DNA of 64,000 nt from Anaerolineae bacterium. GTDB taxonomy: Bacteria > Chloroflexota > Anaerolineae > UBA3071. Below the pieces are notes generated by a model. The model searched no databases. It saw only the letters and a list, made by a program, of their open reading frames with translations, and was not told where the DNA came from. Shown one piece after another: positions 14,648-24,989 of this stretch. Each line of letters begins with the position of its first letter. Position 1 is the first letter of the stretch. The stretch is from contig JARYMM010000003.1 in NCBI GenBank assembly GCA_029907105.1, positions 62,001 to 126,000 of the forward strand. The letters run 5' to 3'. Made by a program: the position numbers and the translations under genes.

Positions 14648-15811
14648 ATGCGCCGACGAAGGCATAGCACATACATTACCCTCTATCTGCTTGTAACGCT
14701 TCTTCTGTTGACTTCCTCTTCCGTTTTAGCCTCTTCCACCCGCGCCCCCGCGGGCAGCACAGTCAGGTTCGAAGGGATGATCGAGGCCATCGGCCTCAAG
14801 AAGTGGGTCATCCAGGGGGTTACCGTTTTCGTCAGCCCCTATGCGGAGATCATCGAGGAAGGCGGCCAGGCCGAGGTGGGTGCCTGGGTCACCGTTTCTG
14901 CCACCTGGCAGGCCGACGGCAATCTGTGGGCCAACTGGATTCGCGTGGAACGGCCCGCCGGCGCTGCCGGAGAGGTTATCGAGTTCACGGGGCTGATCGA
15001 ACGCATCGAAACCCAGCGTTGGGTGATCGGCGGGGTAGAGGTGTGCATTCTGCCCGACACGGTGATCGAGGGACAACCCAAGGTGGGTGTGCCCGCCCGT
15101 GTGCGTGCCCGCTGGCAGGCCGATTGCTGGCAGGCGTTGGCGATTGCCGCCTATCCCGCCATCGGCGGCGAGGGCCAGGTGCAGTTCGAGGGCACCATCG
15201 AGGCGATGGGACCTGCGCTGTGGGTCATCAGCGGCGTGGCGGTGCAGATTAGCGCGGACACAACAGTGGCCGGCGAGCCGCAGGTAGGCCGCCGCGTCGA
15301 GGTGACCGCCTACCTCCAGCCCGATGGTCGGCTGTGGGCCCAGCACATCCTCGTCATCTCCGGAAACGATGACCGCTCGCGCCAATTCGGTGGCCTCATT
15401 AACGCCATCTACACTGGCGAGCAGCCGCAGCGCTGGATGATCAGGGAGTTGGACCCCGCGGTCAGGGCCGGGGAGACGGCCGTGCTGGTGAACGGAAACA
15501 CCCTGATAGACCAGAGCCGGGCGGTGGCCGCGCCGGGGATGTGGGCAGAGGTAACAGCCTACGGCGAGGACGATGGCAGGCTCTGGGCGCAGCGCATCCG
15601 CATCGAACGGCCTGTGGCCGTGGCCATCGAGGGAACGTTGGACACCGCTCCCGTCGGTTCATCTGGCTGGTGGCTGGTGGACGATTATCGCGTGTATGTG
15701 CATGCGCAGACGGTGATCGTGGGGTCCCTTATGACGGGGATGCGCGTGTACGTCACAGGGCTGATGCTGGGCAACGGGAGCATCTGGGCCGAAAACATCT
15801 GGCCGGTGTAA
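14648..15811 (+). CDS. Secreted protein of five DUF5666-like repeats
   Basis: Signal peptide then FEGMIEAIGLKKWVIQGVTV, FTGLIERIETQRWVIGGVEV, FEGTIEAMGPALWVISGVAV, FGGLINAIY...RWMIRE, IEGTLDTAPVGSSGWWLVDD. Confidence 0.82.
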   Translation: MRRRRHSTYITLYLLVTLLLLTSSSVLASSTRAPAGSTVRFEGMIEAIGLKKWVIQGVTVFVSPYAEIIEEGGQAEVGAWVTVSATWQADGNLWANWIRVERPAGAAGEVIEFTGLIERIETQRWVIGGVEVCILPDTVIEGQPKVGVPARVRARWQADCWQALAIAAYPAIGGEGQVQFEGTIEAMGPALWVISGVAVQISADTTVAGEPQVGRRVEVTAYLQPDGRLWAQHILVISGNDDRSRQFGGLINAIYTGEQPQRWMIRELDPAVRAGETAVLVNGNTLIDQSRAVAAPGMWAEVTAYGEDDGRLWAQRIRIERPVAVAIEGTLDTAPVGSSGWWLVDDYRVYVHAQTVIVGSLMTGMRVYVTGLMLGNGSIWAENIWPV

Positions 15812-15848
15812 GCCGAATGAGCCCTGCCATCATAGCTACGCACAGAGA

Positions 15849-15885
15849 TCACGCCGCCCGGGCTGGAGAGGCCTGGGCGGCGTGA
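15849..15885 (+). terminator. Intrinsic terminator
   Basis: TCACGCCGCCC...GGGCGGCGTGA stem after the stop at 15811. Confidence 0.65.
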
Positions 15886-15899
15886 ACGTTTCATGCATC

Positions 15900-15928
15900 T
15901 TGACAAACGAAGCATTCTGGCCTAAAAT
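15900..15928 (+). promoter_or_regulatory. Sigma70-type promoter TTGACA-17-TAAAAT with about 460-nt leader
   Basis: TTGACA 15900-15905, TAAAAT 15923-15928; next CDS starts at 16396. Confidence 0.75.
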
Positions 15929-16000
15929 AGAAGTGCTTCCCCCGCCGACGTCCCCAGGAGCCAGGAGGGCTCCGTCGGCCAACCTCAGTGGATCACAATT

Positions 16001-16033
16001 GCTCGCGGCGGATTGTCAAATCCGCCGCCGAGC
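16001..16033 (+). promoter_or_regulatory. Strong leader hairpin
   Basis: GCTCGCGGCGGATT-gtca-AATCCGCCGCCGAGC with a one-nt bulge, in the leader of the 16396 gene. Confidence 0.6.
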
Positions 16034-16395
16034 TGCCGATCCTTCACCTTGTTCAAGACAAGTCTGGCCATCCAGCAGGAGCAGGCTGTGATGTACTGAA
16101 CCTGCCTGGAGCGGCGAAGGCCATGGCTGGGGCTGCTCTCTTCACCACTCCGAAGCAGGCCGCCCCACTCGAAACGATAAGGAGGTGATGAAACCGCCCT
16201 GAAAGTGGTCTGACGGCGCGCTCCCTGTAGCGCGCGCCCCACGATGCTCATGCGGCCAGGATCGGCGGTCCTGTGGCCCCGGAGCGAGAACATCCCAGCT
16301 TATCCGCTTTCAGGTAGTCCCTTTCAGAAATGGGTTTCCGGAAAGCGATCAACAGGCAAGAGAGGGACTGCCATTCTACGTAAGGAGCCAAGACC

Positions 16396-19300
16396 ATGAA
16401 GAAACGCTTTCTCACGATGGTGAGCCTTGTGGCCGTATTGGTTCTGCTGGCCTCGGCGCTGCCCGTCGCCGCAGTGGAGCGGCAGGCAGACAGGACGACC
16501 AGTACCTTTCTGGCAAACATGGACACCTTCGTTAACGCCTGGGCACCGGGCGCCAGCTACGGCGACGCCTTCAATTTCAGCGTGCGCCAGTCCAACGTGA
16601 TGAGGGGGCTGGTCCGGTTTGACCTTTCGCCCATCCCCCGCTACGCCCGGGTGCACGAGGCGAAGCTGAAACTGTATGCCACCTACCGCACCAACCCCGG
16701 CAGGCTGGATCTGTCCGCCTACAGGGTGCTGGGGCCCTGGGATGAAGGCGTGACCTGGACCACGGCACCGGCGGCGGCTGACACGGCGGTGGCGATGGTC
16801 ACTCTGAACGCTGTCAACATGCAGGTGACGCTGGACGTGACCGATCTGGTGCAGTCCTGGGTGAACGACCCGGCCAGCAACTTCGGCCTGATGCTCAGCG
16901 CGGCCGACCGCAATAAAGTACAATACACTTTCATCGCCTCCGAGTTCAGCCAGGAATCGGCCGGGCCGCCCTATCCCCTGCTGGAAGTCACCTATACCCC
17001 GCCGATCGAGGTGACCATCCTCCACACTAACGATGAGCATGGCTGGCTGCAACCCTATGTGGCCTACCAGTCGCCCATCACCGAGGGCGGGGCGGCCAAC
17101 CTCATGGGCCGCTTCACCCAGATCGAGGGCTACGCGCCGGATGCCGAGGGCTTCCTGCTGCTCAGCGGCGGCGACATGTGGACAGGGCCATCCATCTCCA
17201 CCTGGTTCGAGGGCAGGCCGGTGGTGGAAGTGATGAACGCTATGGGCTACGACGCTGCCGCCATCGGCAACCACGAGTTCGACTTCGGCCGTGAGGCCCT
17301 GAACGAACGGCGGGCAGAGGCTAACTTCCCCTTCCTGGCCGCCAACATCTACTACAAGGGCACCACCACCCTGGCCGATTTCGCCACGCCCTACGTGATC
17401 AAACAGGTCAATGGTGCGGACGTGGGAATCATCGGCCTGAGCACCACCGATACCCCTCTGACGACCCATCCCAAGAACATCAGCGACCTGGACTTCGGCG
17501 ATTACGAGGAAGCCCTGCGCCGCGAGGTGCCCAGGATGCGGGCCGAGGGGGCAGACCTGATCATCGTCGAATCCCACGTCTGCGCCTCGCAATTGGTGCC
17601 CCTGGCCGAGGCGGTCAGCGATCTGGATATCGCCCTGATGGAAGGGGGGCATTGTCACGATACGTTCACGGGACAGGTTAACGGCACGCTCATCGTCGAA
17701 GCCTACTGGGCCATGCGGGCCTACGGCAAGACCTGGTTGCTGCTGGACCCGCTGACCTACGAGGTGATGGACTTCACCCAGGAGGTCATCCCCAACCAGT
17801 ATGTGACCGCGCAGGGCAATCCCGTGGTGCCGGATGCGCAGGTGCAGGCCATCGTGGACTACTGGCAGGGGCAGACCAACCAGGTCATGGGGCAGGTCAT
17901 CGGCTACACGGAAACGGGCATGCCCAGGCGTTCATGGAAGCAACTGAACTATATCATGGACTCCTGGCTGTGGGCTTACCCGCAGGCCGACCTGGCCCTC
18001 AGCAACTGGGGTGGCTTCCGCGCCCCCATTGACGCCGGCGACATCACCGTGGGCGACATCGTGGGCGTGCTGCCCTTCGAGAACCGCATCGTGGATTGCG
18101 CCATCACCGGTGCCCAGTTGGTGGAGAACCTGGAATGCTGCGACGGCGCTCCGGCCGGCTTCTCCTACACCTACTACTATGAGGATGGTCGGCGGGTCGT
18201 GGACACGGTGACCCTGGCCGATGGCTCGCCGCTGGACATGAACGCCACCTATCACGTCCTGGTCAACGACTTCATGTACGCCGGCGGTGATGGCTACCTC
18301 TTCGGCCAGCAAGACCCTTACGCCTACGACACGGGCATCCAGTGGCGGCAGCCGGTCATTGACTGGACGAAAGCCCAGAACACCTCACCGGATTATCCCA
18401 TTGATCCGCTGATAGACGAGCGGCCACGGGCCGTCCAGGTCTACCCGTTGCTCATCCTGCACACCAACGACTTCCACGGCTATCTGCAGAGCGACTCCAG
18501 GGGCCGCGGGGGCTCCGCCTACATGGCCGGGGTGATCAACTGGACGCGGAATGCGGTGGGGGCGGAGAACGTGCTCCTGGCCGACGCCGGCGACGTCTAT
18601 CTGGGGGCTGCGCCCATCTCGCAGTTGCTGCTGGGCGAAAGCGCCATTGACATCTACAACATGATGGGCTACGACGTGGCAGCCTACGGCAACCACGAAT
18701 TCGACAAGGGGCAGGATGTCCTGCAGACCCGCACGGCGCAGTCCAACTTCCCCTGGGTCAGCGCCAACATCGTGCTCGAGGGGACGGAGTGGGAGCATCC
18801 GACCTGGACCGAGCCCTATGTCATCCTGGACAAGGGCGGGGCGGACATCGGCATCATCGGCGTGAGCACCGATGAGACGCCGCAGATCACCCTGAAAGGG
18901 ACGACCGAGGGGCTGGTCTTCAAAGACCCGACGGAGGCGATACTGCGCTACTACGACGAGGTCAAGGCCCAGTCCGATGCCCTGATCGTCCTGGCCCACA
19001 TAGGGACCGAGGACAGCGGGCCGTATAAGGGGCTGCGCACCGTGGCCCAGGAGTTGATAGATGCGGGCAAGCCCGTGGACCTCATGATCGGCGGCCACCA
19101 GCATCAGCCGCTCTCCAATCCGCTGTGGGTAGGGAACACGGCCATCATCGAGGCCGGCTACTACGGCCGCTGGCTGGGCGTGGCCGATGTCACCGTCAAC
19201 CCCGCCACCAAGTCCCTGCGCCTGGACGGCTACCAACTGACCACCATCAATAACACCCTCACGCCCGACCCGGACGTGGAAGCGCGGGTGGCTTACTGGG

Positions 19301-19965
19301 CCGATATGGTGGCACCGATCATCGAGGAGCCGGTAGGCACCACCAACGTCAGCCTGGTGCGCGACTACAACAACGAGTCCAATATGGGCAACCTGGTCAC
19401 CGACGGCATGAGGTGGAAGGCCGATCAGTACGACGATGGCGAGGTGAACGGTTCGGTGGACATCGCCTTCACTAACCCTGGCGGCCTGCGGGCGGACATC
19501 GTGATCCCCGCCGGGGCGCCCCTGCCCTTCCCGATCACCTGGGGCGACACCTTCAACGTCATGCCCTTCGGCAATACGCTGTTCCTCATGGACCTGACCG
19601 GGGCGCAGATCCAGACGCTCCTGAACCAGTCGGCGAGCCTGTACAAGGGCATCCTCCAGACCTCCGGGGCCACCTGGAAATGGTTCAATGATTGCCGATG
19701 CGCTACGCCCACCACCTGGGGGGCCTTCGACGTCATGGTCAACGGGCAGCCGTTGGATCCGGGCATGACCTATCGGGTGGTGACCAACAACTTCCTGGCC
19801 GGTGGTCAGGATGGCTGGGTGACCTTCGCCGAGGGCACCAACCGCTGGGATACCTACTACGACATGCAGGAAGCCGTCAACGAGTACATCCGGTGGTACA
19901 ACGCCAACGTGGGGCCCATTGAGCATCAGGTCGAGGGCAGGATCGTCTACGCCCCCGCTCCCTGA
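16396..19965 (+). CDS. Secreted DNRLRE-domain protein with two tandem 5'-nucleotidase (metallophosphatase + 5_nucleotid_C) units
   Basis: N-terminal DNRLRE (NMDTFVNAWAPGASYGDAFNFSVRQ...RGLVRFDLS...DVTDLVQSWVNDPASNFGLML); unit 1 ILHTNDEHGWL...IGNHEFDFG; unit 2 ILHTNDFHGYL...YGNHEFDKG...MIGGHQHQPL. Confidence 0.9.
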   Translation: MKKRFLTMVSLVAVLVLLASALPVAAVERQADRTTSTFLANMDTFVNAWAPGASYGDAFNFSVRQSNVMRGLVRFDLSPIPRYARVHEAKLKLYATYRTNPGRLDLSAYRVLGPWDEGVTWTTAPAAADTAVAMVTLNAVNMQVTLDVTDLVQSWVNDPASNFGLMLSAADRNKVQYTFIASEFSQESAGPPYPLLEVTYTPPIEVTILHTNDEHGWLQPYVAYQSPITEGGAANLMGRFTQIEGYAPDAEGFLLLSGGDMWTGPSISTWFEGRPVVEVMNAMGYDAAAIGNHEFDFGREALNERRAEANFPFLAANIYYKGTTTLADFATPYVIKQVNGADVGIIGLSTTDTPLTTHPKNISDLDFGDYEEALRREVPRMRAEGADLIIVESHVCASQLVPLAEAVSDLDIALMEGGHCHDTFTGQVNGTLIVEAYWAMRAYGKTWLLLDPLTYEVMDFTQEVIPNQYVTAQGNPVVPDAQVQAIVDYWQGQTNQVMGQVIGYTETGMPRRSWKQLNYIMDSWLWAYPQADLALSNWGGFRAPIDAGDITVGDIVGVLPFENRIVDCAITGAQLVENLECCDGAPAGFSYTYYYEDGRRVVDTVTLADGSPLDMNATYHVLVNDFMYAGGDGYLFGQQDPYAYDTGIQWRQPVIDWTKAQNTSPDYPIDPLIDERPRAVQVYPLLILHTNDFHGYLQSDSRGRGGSAYMAGVINWTRNAVGAENVLLADAGDVYLGAAPISQLLLGESAIDIYNMMGYDVAAYGNHEFDKGQDVLQTRTAQSNFPWVSANIVLEGTEWEHPTWTEPYVILDKGGADIGIIGVSTDETPQITLKGTTEGLVFKDPTEAILRYYDEVKAQSDALIVLAHIGTEDSGPYKGLRTVAQELIDAGKPVDLMIGGHQHQPLSNPLWVGNTAIIEAGYYGRWLGVADVTVNPATKSLRLDGYQLTTINNTLTPDPDVEARVAYWADMVAPIIEEPVGTTNVSLVRDYNNESNMGNLVTDGMRWKADQYDDGEVNGSVDIAFTNPGGLRADIVIPAGAPLPFPITWGDTFNVMPFGNTLFLMDLTGAQIQTLLNQSASLYKGILQTSGATWKWFNDCRCATPTTWGAFDVMVNGQPLDPGMTYRVVTNNFLAGGQDGWVTFAEGTNRWDTYYDMQEAVNEYIRWYNANVGPIEHQVEGRIVYAPAP

Positions 19966-19999
19966 CGGTCATTACGGCTGGTAACAGAAGTCATGATAT

Positions 20000-20044
20000 C
20001 CCCACCCTGACCCTCCCCCGCTGCGGGGGAGGGTTGAGGTGGGG
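20000..20044. repeat. GC-rich palindrome, terminator- or REP-like
   Basis: CCCCACCCTGACCCTCCCCCGctgCGGGGGAGGGTTGAGGTGGGG, downstream of the stop at 19965. Confidence 0.6.
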
Positions 20045-20068
20045 GGCACAAAGCACAGAGCGGGCAGT

Positions 20069-20097
20069 TTGACAAAAGCGACGTTATGCCCTACAAT
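20069..20097 (+). promoter_or_regulatory. Sigma70-type promoter TTGACA-17-TACAAT with about 320-nt leader
   Basis: TTGACA 20069-20074, TACAAT 20092-20097; CDS starts at 20425. Confidence 0.75.
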
Positions 20098-20250
20098 ATG
20101 AGTATGTCTTGCCGTCTGATTCTCATCATCTCGTCGGCAATCCACGCTGCTTCTTCTATGCCGGACACAGGCCAATCGGGGAGAAACCGCTCATGTCGTG
20201 GTCTGCTGACAACCTCGGCCCCTGGTATGTACTTCTGCACACGCCCCTCT

Positions 20251-20286
20251 GCGCCAACGCAGGGCCTGGCGCCCTGTCGTTGGCGC
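20251..20286 (+). promoter_or_regulatory. Strong leader hairpin
   Basis: GCGCCAACGCAGGGC-ctggc-GCCCTGTCGTTGGCGC, one-nt bulge. Confidence 0.6.
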
Positions 20287-20424
20287 TTGCTGTTTGAAAG
20301 ACAGTGCACAGCTAGCGGAAAGGAGGTGGTGGCCCGGCATCAAAACGTGGTGAAGCTGCCCTGAAGAGTTCTGCGGCGAGATCGTTGACTGTACTGAGTT
20401 CAATTCGTTCAAGGAGGGAGCACA

Positions 20425-23400
20425 ATGAAATACACGATTCCAAAATGGCTGGCGCTGCTGGTGGTGTTGGCTATGGTGCTGACCCTGGCCCCGGCCGCGC
20501 TGGCCAGCCCACCGTATCCCGAAGGCTATGAACGGCCGGTACAGCTGCCAGAGGACGTGGCTGTGAAGCCCATCGCTCGCATAGCCAAGCCCATAGACCA
20601 ACCCAACATCAAGGACTACCTGCGCAACCGCGAGCGGCAGCGATTGCTGGAGGCCGGCCTGACGGCGGAGGCCAACGCGCTGGGCCTGTCGGGAACCGAC
20701 CGTGTGCTGGTGATCCTGGTCGAGTTCGCCGGCACCGACACCTTCACCTGGGAGGCGGGTGTCTCCACCTGGGACCCCTACGGCCGTGCCGATCCCAATG
20801 AAGCCGTGTATGATGAGGAGGGCAACGTCATCGTCGGCGATTGCTCCAACATCATCAACGAGACCACGACGTTCACCTACAGCGGGCCCTTGCACAACCA
20901 GATCCCGCGCCCGCTGTCGGCAGAGGACCGCTCGGGTGATACCATCTGGACGGAGGATTTCAGCCCAGAATGGTTCAACGGCTTCATGTTTGGCCAGGGC
21001 GTCATCTTCGACTACGACCGCGTGGATGGTTCTCACGTCCACGAGGACTTCACCGGCCAGTCGGTGCGAGACTACTACGAAGACCTGTCCGATGGGCAGT
21101 ATATCATCACCGGCGACATCATCGGCTGGCTGCAACTGCCGCACTCCACCTGGTGGTACGGGGCTGACCAATGCCCCGGCGCTCGTTCCGGCGGAGGGCG
21201 CTGGCATGGAGCCATTCCCGGCGCGGGCAATGCCAGGACGCTGGTGACGGATGCCCTGGACGCGGTCAATGCCGTCAAGGACACCATCCCCGGCTTCGAC
21301 TGGGCTAACTACGACCAGAATGGCGATGGCATCATTGACCGCCTGTGGATCGTGCACTCCGGCTATGGCGAAGAGGACGCCTCCACACTGCTCAACCGCA
21401 CCGACTACGGCGAATCCTCCCTGTGGTCGCACTCCAGCGCCATCAGCCCGCCCTACGAAGTGGCACCGGGCATCTTCGCCGGCCCCTACATCATGATGCC
21501 GGAGAACGGTGGCATCGGCGTCTTCGCCCATGAGTACGGCCACAACCTGGGCGCCGACGACCTGTACGCCTATGATCAGGGCGAGACCTCGGCCGGCTTC
21601 TGGACCTTGATGGCCGACGACTGGACCGGTTACCCCATCGGCTTCGAGCCGCCGGCGGTGGACCCCTGGCACCTGGATAACTGGGGCTGGCTCAACCCCA
21701 TCGTCATTGACGACATGAGCCAGTACTACGAGTTCACCCTGGGCCAGGCCAGCCGCTTCCCCGGTGGAGAAGGCATGTACCGCGGGGCCAAGATCGTGCT
21801 GCCCGATGGCGTGCTCTTCCTGCCGGTGCCTCTCTGGCAGGGGAACTACTACTGGTGGGGCGGCAAGAAAGACCTGGCCAACGCCATGATGACCACCGTC
21901 AACCCCATTGCCATCCCCGCCGGAGGGGCCACACTGTCCTTCGATCTGGTCTATGACATCGAGGATGAGTGGGACTTCCTGTGGGTCCAGGTCTCGACGG
22001 TTCCTTCGCCAGAGCCTTCCGGTGTGGCATGGGATACGCTCACCAACGAGAACACCAAGTGCGTGCATGATCCGAGCTGGATCGGCGGGCTGTATGGCTT
22101 CCCCGACGACCTGTGCGGAGCCGGATTGGGTGGCTTCTACGGCTACAATGCCAACTGGCCCGATCCTGAGACACAGGTCTTCGACCTGAGTGCCTACGCC
22201 GGCCAGGAGATCTACCTGCGCTTGTGGTTCATGACCGACTGGGCCACCACCTACACCGGCGCTTTCGTGGATAACGTCAAGGTCGAAGCCGATGGCAACG
22301 TCCTCTTCTTCGACGACGCCGAAGCCGGCGACGCCCAATGGGTCTACCAGGATCCCTGGCAGCGCAGCGACGGCACGATGGCCTTCACCCACAACTACTA
22401 CCTGCAGTGGCGTAACGTGGGCGAAAATGGCGGCTACGATAGCGCCCTGGGCGATGCGCGCTGGCGCTTCGGCCCGGCCAACAGCGGCATGTTGGTGTGG
22501 TACAATAACAACTTCTACACCGACAATGAGATCTGGCACTACCTGTTCGACGATCCGAGCTGGGGGCCCAAGGGCCGCATGCTGGTCGTGGACGCCCATC
22601 CCGAGCCATACCGCGATCCGGACCTGGTGGCCATGGGCTACAACAATGAGGGCGGCAACCTGACCTCCCGCGGGCAGATGCGCGATGCGCCGTTCAGCCT
22701 GTGGCCTTCGGTGGACTTCTGGCACACCGACCCCTACCGCGCCGGCGCTCAGAAGCACTACTACGAGGGCCGGCCGGCCGTGAGGGCCTTCCACGATGCC
22801 CTGGGCTACTATCCCGGTGCCGAGTATGTGGTCCGTGGCCCGGCCTATCCGCCAACCCAGTACCGCTGGGTGACCAAGCAGTGGGACGCCAGCGTCGTCG
22901 TTCCGGCCACGGGATTCTATCCCCTGAAGGCGCCCGGGTACAAGGGCACCGGCGGCACCAGGGATCAGGAGTTCCGCTTCAACTGCTCCATCTACCCGGG
23001 TGGCTATCTGGCCTGCTACTGGCTCGGGGCTTACACCGGCCTGGGCTACGATGGCGGCACCGGCAATCCGGGCGACTACGACGTCCAGTACGGCGTGCAT
23101 GCCTGTATCCTGGACCAGGCGCAGGACGGCTCCTGGGGCAAGGTCCTCGTCGCTAACTTCATCCTGGATGGCACCGGCTTCACCGCCAGCCCGGTGGAAG
23201 TGGTCGAGGGTAAAGAGGTGGAGTTCGTGCTGGCGCCCCATAACCTGGGCGGCAACAGCCCGGTCTTCGCCTTCGTGCCCTGGGACTACATGAACAACCA
23301 GTTGCTGGTGGACACCCTGACCAACGGCGCCTTCCCCATCTACGGTGACCTCACGGCGGAGCAGGTGGGCGCGCTGTACGCCGAGGGCGGCGCCGAGGCC

Positions 23401-24114
23401 GTGCGGGCGCTCTCCGTACAACAGGATAGCGGCATACCCCTGGCCGGCATCGGCTGGATCGGCGTCGTGCCCCCTGGCACGAACGAGCTCTTCCGCTTCA
23501 AGATGATCCCCTGGTTGGGCGGCTATCCCTTCAGCCTGCGGGCCGACTTCTACCTCTGCGGCGACCGCGTCTTCAGCGTGGACTCCGACGTGGTGAAGGT
23601 CCGTCTCTCCGGCGGCCCCTTCGAGTACAGGCTATGGCCCCAGATGGACACCTTCGTCAGCAGCCTGAGGCCGGACGCCAGCTTCGCCGATCGTCCCACC
23701 TTCAACGTGGCGCAGCCGGATACGGCGCGAGGTCTCCTGTACTTCGACACCTCGTGGATCCCGCCGCTGGCCATCGTGGACAGCGCCAAACTGAAGCTGT
23801 ATCCTCTGGAGCGCAACCGCGACCGCTGGATGCATCTGGTGGCCTATCCTATGGAAGAATTGTGGTGGGAGGACATCACCTGGAACGAGGCGCCAGATTC
23901 CGGGGCCATCCCGGCCGGCAGCGCGGCGCTGGACAGGGTCAACGTAGAGGTCGAGCTGGACATCACCGCCCTGGTACAGCAGTGGATCAGCAATCCCTCG
24001 ACCAACTTTGGCCTGATGCTCAAGGGCGAAGAGGCCCAGGCTGTGATGTACACCTTCATGGCTTCCGAGCACCGCTTCGGCGAGTGGCCGCGTCTGGAGA
24101 TCGTTGCCCACTAG
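20425..24114 (+). CDS. Secreted M6 family (immune inhibitor A-like) metalloprotease with C-terminal DNRLRE domain
   Basis: VFAHEYGHNLGADDLYA zinc motif; MAM-like segments; C-terminal QMDTFVSSLRPDASFADRPTFNVAQ...ITALVQQWISNPSTNFGLML. Confidence 0.88.
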   Translation: MKYTIPKWLALLVVLAMVLTLAPAALASPPYPEGYERPVQLPEDVAVKPIARIAKPIDQPNIKDYLRNRERQRLLEAGLTAEANALGLSGTDRVLVILVEFAGTDTFTWEAGVSTWDPYGRADPNEAVYDEEGNVIVGDCSNIINETTTFTYSGPLHNQIPRPLSAEDRSGDTIWTEDFSPEWFNGFMFGQGVIFDYDRVDGSHVHEDFTGQSVRDYYEDLSDGQYIITGDIIGWLQLPHSTWWYGADQCPGARSGGGRWHGAIPGAGNARTLVTDALDAVNAVKDTIPGFDWANYDQNGDGIIDRLWIVHSGYGEEDASTLLNRTDYGESSLWSHSSAISPPYEVAPGIFAGPYIMMPENGGIGVFAHEYGHNLGADDLYAYDQGETSAGFWTLMADDWTGYPIGFEPPAVDPWHLDNWGWLNPIVIDDMSQYYEFTLGQASRFPGGEGMYRGAKIVLPDGVLFLPVPLWQGNYYWWGGKKDLANAMMTTVNPIAIPAGGATLSFDLVYDIEDEWDFLWVQVSTVPSPEPSGVAWDTLTNENTKCVHDPSWIGGLYGFPDDLCGAGLGGFYGYNANWPDPETQVFDLSAYAGQEIYLRLWFMTDWATTYTGAFVDNVKVEADGNVLFFDDAEAGDAQWVYQDPWQRSDGTMAFTHNYYLQWRNVGENGGYDSALGDARWRFGPANSGMLVWYNNNFYTDNEIWHYLFDDPSWGPKGRMLVVDAHPEPYRDPDLVAMGYNNEGGNLTSRGQMRDAPFSLWPSVDFWHTDPYRAGAQKHYYEGRPAVRAFHDALGYYPGAEYVVRGPAYPPTQYRWVTKQWDASVVVPATGFYPLKAPGYKGTGGTRDQEFRFNCSIYPGGYLACYWLGAYTGLGYDGGTGNPGDYDVQYGVHACILDQAQDGSWGKVLVANFILDGTGFTASPVEVVEGKEVEFVLAPHNLGGNSPVFAFVPWDYMNNQLLVDTLTNGAFPIYGDLTAEQVGALYAEGGAEAVRALSVQQDSGIPLAGIGWIGVVPPGTNELFRFKMIPWLGGYPFSLRADFYLCGDRVFSVDSDVVKVRLSGGPFEYRLWPQMDTFVSSLRPDASFADRPTFNVAQPDTARGLLYFDTSWIPPLAIVDSAKLKLYPLERNRDRWMHLVAYPMEELWWEDITWNEAPDSGAIPAGSAALDRVNVEVELDITALVQQWISNPSTNFGLMLKGEEAQAVMYTFMASEHRFGEWPRLEIVAH

Positions 24115-24178
24115 CCTGCTCAGGAAGGGGATAAAGCAGCCTCTGCCCATCCCCTTCCACCCGAGCTCAGAAACGATA

Positions 24179-24207
24179 AGGCCAGGGAGGATTGTCCTCC
24201 CTGGCCT
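24179..24207 (+). terminator. Intrinsic terminator
   Basis: AGGCCAGGGAGGA-TTG-TCCTCCCTGGCCT followed by TCCTTTCC. Confidence 0.85.
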
Positions 24208-24233
24208 TCCTTTCCGATTCAGAGTATCACCCC

Positions 24234-24989
24234 ATGCCCAGAATCATCGCCCTGGGCACCTCGGCGGCGCTGCCGCACGATGCCCGCGAGAACACTTATC
24301 TGCTCCTGAACGGCACGACGCAGTCCTACCTCATTGACTGTGCAGGCAGCCCGGTGCAACGGCTACAGCAGGCGGGCCTGGCCCTGGACAGGCTGGAGGG
24401 CCTCATCGTCACCCATCATCACCCCGACCACATCTACGGCGTGCCCACGCTGCTCTCCAGCCTCTGGCTCTCCGGACGTCAGAGACCCTTCCGCATCTAC
24501 GGGCCGGAGAAAAGCATGCGCGCCCTGCAGGCCATCGGCGTCCTCATGGAGTGGGATACGTGGCCAAACTGGATGCCGGTCGTCTATCACAGTGTGCCAG
24601 CGCAAGAGAACGTCATCGTGCTCGACGAGATGGAGTTCCGCATCACCAGCAGCCCGGGAGAGCACCTGACGATGACGACGTTGGCCTTGCGGATAGAGTC
24701 CAGGCAGACAGGGGGTGTGGCGGTCTATTCCAGCGACACGGGGCCATGCGAGGCTGTAGTCAGATTGGCGCGGGGAGCCGATTTGTTGATTCACGAGGCT
24801 ACAGGGCCATACGAGGGACATTCCAGGGCCGCCCAGGCCGCTGCGGTGGCCCGCCAGGCCCAGGTCGGGCGTCTGGTGCTGGTGCACTATCCCCGCTCCG
24901 AAGACGCCCTGCGGATGATCCAGGAGGCCAGAGAACACTTTGCCGGCCCCGTGGAGGTGGCCGGGGACTTCGCCGTCTACGAATTCTGA
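24234..24989 (+). CDS. MBL-fold metallo-hydrolase, RNase Z/arylsulfatase-like
   Basis: MPRIIALGTSAALPHDARENTYLLL; VTHHHPDHIYGVPTLL; SSDTGPCEA; LLIHEATG. Start trimmed to MPRIIALG. Confidence 0.85.
   Translation: MPRIIALGTSAALPHDARENTYLLLNGTTQSYLIDCAGSPVQRLQQAGLALDRLEGLIVTHHHPDHIYGVPTLLSSLWLSGRQRPFRIYGPEKSMRALQAIGVLMEWDTWPNWMPVVYHSVPAQENVIVLDEMEFRITSSPGEHLTMTTLALRIESRQTGGVAVYSSDTGPCEAVVRLARGADLLIHEATGPYEGHSRAAQAAAVARQAQVGRLVLVHYPRSEDALRMIQEAREHFAGPVEVAGDFAVYEF

Follow-up and report, generated by a model that had tools for sequence, protein, structure and literature searches.

A distal Shine-Dalgarno-like block in leaders of exported-protein genes of Anaerolineae: a candidate non-initiating 30S docking site

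Introduction

The leader of a secreted M6 metalloprotease gene in an Anaerolineae draft genome contains, besides the ordinary Shine-Dalgarno (SD) sequence next to the start codon, a second and stronger SD-like block roughly 100 nt upstream of the start. The question raised by this locus is what such a block does at that distance, and whether the arrangement is particular to this gene. The sequence analysed, termed the window, is a stretch of 64,000 nt of contig JARYMM010000003.1, and all coordinates refer to it. STAB-SD elements have been described in individual Gram-positive leaders, e.g., that of cry3A. The precedent has its site at −129 in the leader (PMC4113751), and a strong SD without a start codon stabilises mRNA in organisms that lack RNase E (PMC3997798).

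Results

The M6 protease leader

The protease gene (20425..24114, plus strand) encodes an immune inhibitor A-like, secreted M6 metalloprotease of 1229 aa with a C-terminal CBM96. A sigma-70-type promoter, TTGACA-17-TACAAT, is found at 20069..20097 (plus strand) as the initial annotation had read it, scoring 11/12; its TTTGACAA and −10 region can be aligned with those of three related leaders from G001, an Anaerolineales UBA3071 relative of the same family. A stable hairpin, GCGCCAACGCAGGGC/GCCCTG-T-CGTTGGCGC followed by TTGCTGTTTGAAAG, lies at 20251..20286 (plus strand), exactly where it had been placed. It folds at −30.5 kcal/mol (z −3.75), and 0/200 shuffles were equally good.

The SD-like block, GGAAAGGAGGTGGTG, is a candidate distal 16S-complementary docking site at 20317..20331 (plus strand). 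The block reported at about 20318-20332 is thus real but displaced by one base, and the distance of about 100 nt to the M6 start is measured as 105 nt from the beginning of AAGGAGGTGGTG to the ATG at 20425. Its predicted duplex with the assumed 16S tail has −23.1 kcal/mol, as compared to a weaker −12.7 kcal/mol for the gene's ordinary SD region, AAGGAGGG, at 20411..20424 (plus strand). The short frame GTG GTG GCC CGG CAT CAA AAC GTG GTG AAG CTG CCC TGA is present as letters at 20326..20364 (plus strand); it is not conserved and, judged from its sequence, is probably without function.

Two other open frames were observed in this region. A frame of about 34 codons, ATG TCG TGG TCT ... GCT GTT TGA (20190-20300), crosses the hairpin and stops just beyond it; a similar frame is found in the G001 leader gM6 and is absent from the G001 leader gNT2. 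Antisense to the M6 gene there is a 1076-aa open frame (20191-23421, minus strand), which most likely results from the high GC3 of the codons.

The neighbouring 5′-nucleotidase-like gene

The gene at 16396..19965 (plus strand) encodes a secreted 5′-nucleotidase/metallophosphatase-like protein of 1189 aa with CBM96. Its leader displays a promoter, TTGACA-17-TAAAAT, at 15900..15928 (plus strand) and a candidate distal docking site, ATAAGGAGGTGATG, at 16177..16190 (plus strand), with a duplex of −19.4 kcal/mol versus −7.7 kcal/mol for the SD of its own start. AAGGAGGTGATG is at 16179-16190, and the letters ATG AAA CCG CCC TGA are at 16188-16202.

The initial annotation had proposed one leader plan for two otherwise unrelated enzymes. 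The distal SD-like block is indeed common to both leaders, but the nucleotidase leader has no hairpin matching that of M6 at the corresponding place; nor are the enzymes wholly unrelated, as both have the CBM96 domain. Comparison of the two leaders gave a weak similarity (z 3.1), and the best of 200 shuffles scored above the real pair. Homology between the two window leaders is therefore not claimed. The cluster of genes for a DUF5666 protein, the 5′-nucleotidase-like protein, the M6 protease and a metallo-beta-lactamase (window 14648-24989; L182, L180) is partly syntenic in G001.

Homologous leaders in a related genome

The window M6 leader (wM6) is homologous to the G001 leaders gM6 and gNT2, as shown by alignment score (z 12-15), and a third homologous G001 leader, gNT1, was recovered by DNA search. 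The order in this family is promoter TTTGACAA, hairpin CGCCAACG/CGTTGGCG, TTTGCTGTTTGAAAG and finally the docking site. The three leader copies of G001 precede three secreted-enzyme genes, nucleotidase and protease, and the shared plan in that genome is thus partly the result of common descent. The window nucleotidase leader has no clear homology to the M6-family leaders (z 1.1-3.1).

A local, structured attenuator confined to the M6 and nucleotidase genes should be considered here, whereby promoter, terminator-like hairpin and an anti-terminating docked ribosome would act together. The hairpin is retained in all four homologous leaders (wM6, gM6, gNT2 and gNT1) and is terminator-like in one of the G001 leaders, and TTTTCTGTTT directly follows the gM6 hairpin. 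Against this stand the weak T-run in the window copy, an Rfam scan of the window that gave no match above gathering score, and the docking site itself, which is widespread without an M6-type hairpin, the window nucleotidase leader included. The attenuator is thus quite improbable. The hairpin was also tried as a general conserved part and rejected: segments around the sites fold only slightly better than shuffles. It belongs to the shared plan of same-family genome leaders and lies outside the general element.

The distal block across the host genome

The draft genome has 3.78 Mb in 133 contigs, and about 1 Mb, with genes predicted by our own codon-score caller, was sampled for counts. In this sample, AGGAGGTG in intergenic DNA, counted where it precedes a start by over 35 nt, is found 20 times in the sense and once in the antisense orientation, and only 5 occurrences are at ordinary SD positions. 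Distal AGGAGGTG is present in 16 leaders versus 1.4 expected from shuffles.

The 349 leaders with a length of 110 nt or more were scored for RGGAGGTG at about 70-320 nt. The motif was observed in 21 leaders, compared to 3.4 in shuffles, and in the antisense orientation in one leader. With "exported" defined by a simple hydrophobicity rule rather than a signal-peptide predictor, the motif is found ahead of 15/74 exported-protein genes versus 6/275 others (Fisher p 4e-7); it is present in 12/19 lipoprotein leaders. An ATG at productive spacing follows in 4 of the approximately 21 sites of this genome. Several genomic AAGGAGGTGGTG matches were discarded as coding repeats (KEVVV in solute-binding lipoproteins).

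Spread over the class and beyond

AAAGGAGGTGATG is found in 45/60 related genomes, well above a reversed-pattern control. Of 90 AAAGGAGGTGATG loci inspected in same-class genomes, 63 precede a start codon that has a separate SD, at a distance of 79-284 nt (median 108). The genes behind these distal sites mostly look exported (51/63) and are in the main solute-binding lipoproteins. Site-to-start distances number 60 at 79-204 nt versus one at 20-78 nt. In leaders of M6 proteases a strong distal 16S complement is present in 10/10 Chloroflexota, the window and G001 included, at 73-243 nt, and in 0/7 M6 relatives from other phyla. Among Chloroflexota outside the class the arrangement is rarer, yet present in a few. 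Other genes with a distal block had been sought on the suggestion of the initial annotation; the arrangement cannot be set aside as peculiar to the window, since dozens of leaders in the genome and the class carry it.

One relative, G030, was left out of the counts as it is only 20% coding by a simple caller; it is a single contig (L140-L149) and appears as if frameshift-rich. A docking site is also seen about 83-110 nt upstream of genes for multi-span membrane proteins that, by eye, look like PTS sugar transporter IIC (L114, L290, L294, L309 and G018:C4 near 135672), and the target set is thus wider than secreted proteins. A different common block, AAAGGAGGTGATGTGSAGTG, is found about 190-236 nt upstream of smpB-like and greA-like genes in several genomes of Chloroflexota outside the class (L271, L273-L276, L279); it is possibly another leader, an RNA or a small gene.

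Conservation of 16S pairing versus a reading frame

No 16S gene of the host could be located in the assembly, where the sole GGATCACCTCCTT match is not 16S, and the 16S tail used for pairing was taken from class relatives. The anti-SD of Anaerolineae is CCUCCUUU (PMC10783764).

Between promoter and gene, the stretch conserved best in five related solute-binding leaders is GAAAGGAGGTGATG, and the sequence downstream of it displays indels whose lengths are not multiples of three, plus an ATG TGA. Similarly, in the M6/nucleotidase leader family GGAAAGGAGGT is retained while the frame that follows varies. One-base variants of the block that keep G-U pairing occur 10 times in sense and 2 times in antisense (4 variants), and other changes 6 and 0 times (29 variants). 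The pair-breaking variants are mostly coding chance matches, while A-to-G changes that keep G-U pairing persist in leaders. AAAGGGGGTGATG is distal in 7/10 cases, versus 1/20 with C or T at the same place (hypergeometric p ~4e-4). These patterns indicate that selection acts on complementarity to the 16S rRNA tail.

The substitutions bear also on a DNA-level signal, such as a transcription factor site, that merely resembles an SD. The blocks do sit in promoter-proximal intergenic DNA; however, they are confined to the sense strand, their position is fixed with respect to the start codon and not the promoter, and their changes obey RNA wobble rules, such that a signal of this type is very improbable indeed.

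A translated leader micro-ORF, functioning as an attenuator or a reinitiation leader gene, is a further alternative. An ATG or GTG often directly follows the block, and CCC TGA A closes the frame in both window leaders. In addition, G after AAAGGAGGTGAT is moderately enriched, being present in an estimated half or so of distal sites versus about 25-30% expected; this G creates an ATG 2 nt from the SD. However, a start only 2 nt from the SD speaks against initiation there, and an ATG is missing from that place in about half of the distal sites. The ATG frame after the block has the lowest coding score of the three frames, with a GC3 of 0.53 versus 0.79 in genes, and stop positions show hardly any frame difference, with no accumulation 10-11 nt upstream of the gene. 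At the spacing that would allow initiation, start codons number 6/63 versus 13-23 in shifted windows; the set scored had been chosen for ATG at 2 nt, and long ORFs starting there had been left out. The micro-ORF had been put forward as a conserved element, but in related leaders the frame starts or stops elsewhere, is reduced to ATG TGA, is broken by indels of lengths other than multiples of three, or lacks a start codon, and the C-C-C-TGA-A ending that the two window leaders share is not kept. A translated micro-ORF is therefore unlikely.

GG precedes the block in distal sites, and the G adjoining the block could pair with an extended 16S tail. The motif is predicted to be no more open than its surroundings (local accessibility).

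Discussion

The reading we favour, with about even confidence, is that the block is a STAB-SD-like, non-initiating 30S docking site that protects mRNA and is employed throughout the class for exported proteins. The docking step taken by itself is highly probable; protection of the mRNA by docking is proposed by analogy with STAB-SD. In the M6 leader, the transcript would begin about 215 nt upstream of the block, giving a long 5′ UTR, and GGAAAGGAGGUGGU and the 3′ tail of 16S rRNA would form a duplex of about 13-14 nt. The paired 30S would then be held about 105 nt upstream of the start codon actually used, whose own SD is weaker. Parked in this position, it would stop 5′-to-3′ decay by RNase J, and the blocked decay would result in a long-lived mRNA for exported proteins that are made in abundance. 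Predicted promoters are 50-300 nt upstream of the sites, and processing of the transcript must therefore be assumed. We infer all three of the cellular steps, i.e., 30S binding in the cell, RNA trimming to the site and the gain in stability. The STAB-SD reading leaves two features unexplained, the moderate preference for G after AAAGGAGGTGAT, which puts an ATG 2 nt behind the SD, and the GG that precedes the block.

The same docking evidence from sequence would also serve ribosome standby, whereby the 30S docks distally and passes to the start SD about 80-110 nt downstream, so that initiation rather than stability is raised. The narrow spacing, 79-130 nt in most leaders, is consistent with this, and so is the precedent of E. 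coli tisB, in which the 30S stands by about 100 nt ahead of the ribosome binding site (RBS) (PMC7708055). However, standby of the tisB type relies on S1, a single-stranded region and a 5′ structure in place of a long SD duplex, and the segment from site to start showed no consistent structure. RNase J (611.5 bits) and RNase Y (670.8 bits) were detected in the host genome, and RNase E/G was not found there. This is the STAB-SD setting of Bacillus, and it favours mRNA protection over standby loading; we place standby second, as the less probable of the two.

The proposed docking site resembles the STAB-SD of Bacillus thuringiensis cry3A (cryIIIA) in being a 5′-UTR SD-like sequence, complementary to the 16S tail and separate from the gene's own SD, at a distance from the start that is about 130 nt in cry3A (PMC4113751). 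In both hosts RNase J is present and RNase E absent (PMC4113751, PMC3997798). What sets the present site apart from cry3A is its recurrence throughout the class, chiefly ahead of genes for exported solute-binding proteins and lipoproteins, along with the long pairing and the minimum spacing of about 79 nt. With the tisB site the common feature is 30S docking, predicted in our case, some 100 nt ahead of the RBS (PMC7708055), but the tisB site depends on S1 and structure rather than on a long SD duplex, and the tisB RBS is sequestered. Reinitiation leader genes (Korolev et al. 2016, PMC4833913) likewise have an SD and a possible short frame upstream of the gene; however, their stops are about 10-11 nt before the gene, whereas the stops described here show no constraint and a coding signal is absent. 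In the openly accessible literature, nothing was found that joins STAB-SD with Chloroflexota, except for an anti-SD survey that cites STAB-SD. The kind of element is already known; what appears to be new is the spacing rule, together with the element's employment throughout the class in front of exported-protein genes.

More broadly, and with somewhat less than even confidence, the leaders may represent a post-transcriptional system of Chloroflexota/Anaerolineae. In such a system the mRNAs for exported proteins would carry a dedicated 16S docking site that does not initiate and that keeps about 79 nt or more away from the start, and the parked 30S would control stability, standby loading or targeting. 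The strongest anti-SD complements in this sample are away from start codons, and SD-based start calling and SD surveys can therefore be misled. For the Anaerolineae, the finding ties a STAB-SD-like site to one group of genes, exported and solute-binding, across a class, with a clear spacing rule and with signs in the sequence that its 16S pairing is under selection. How non-initiating ribosomes protect mRNA would thereby become testable genome-wide in organisms that have RNases J and Y and no RNase E.
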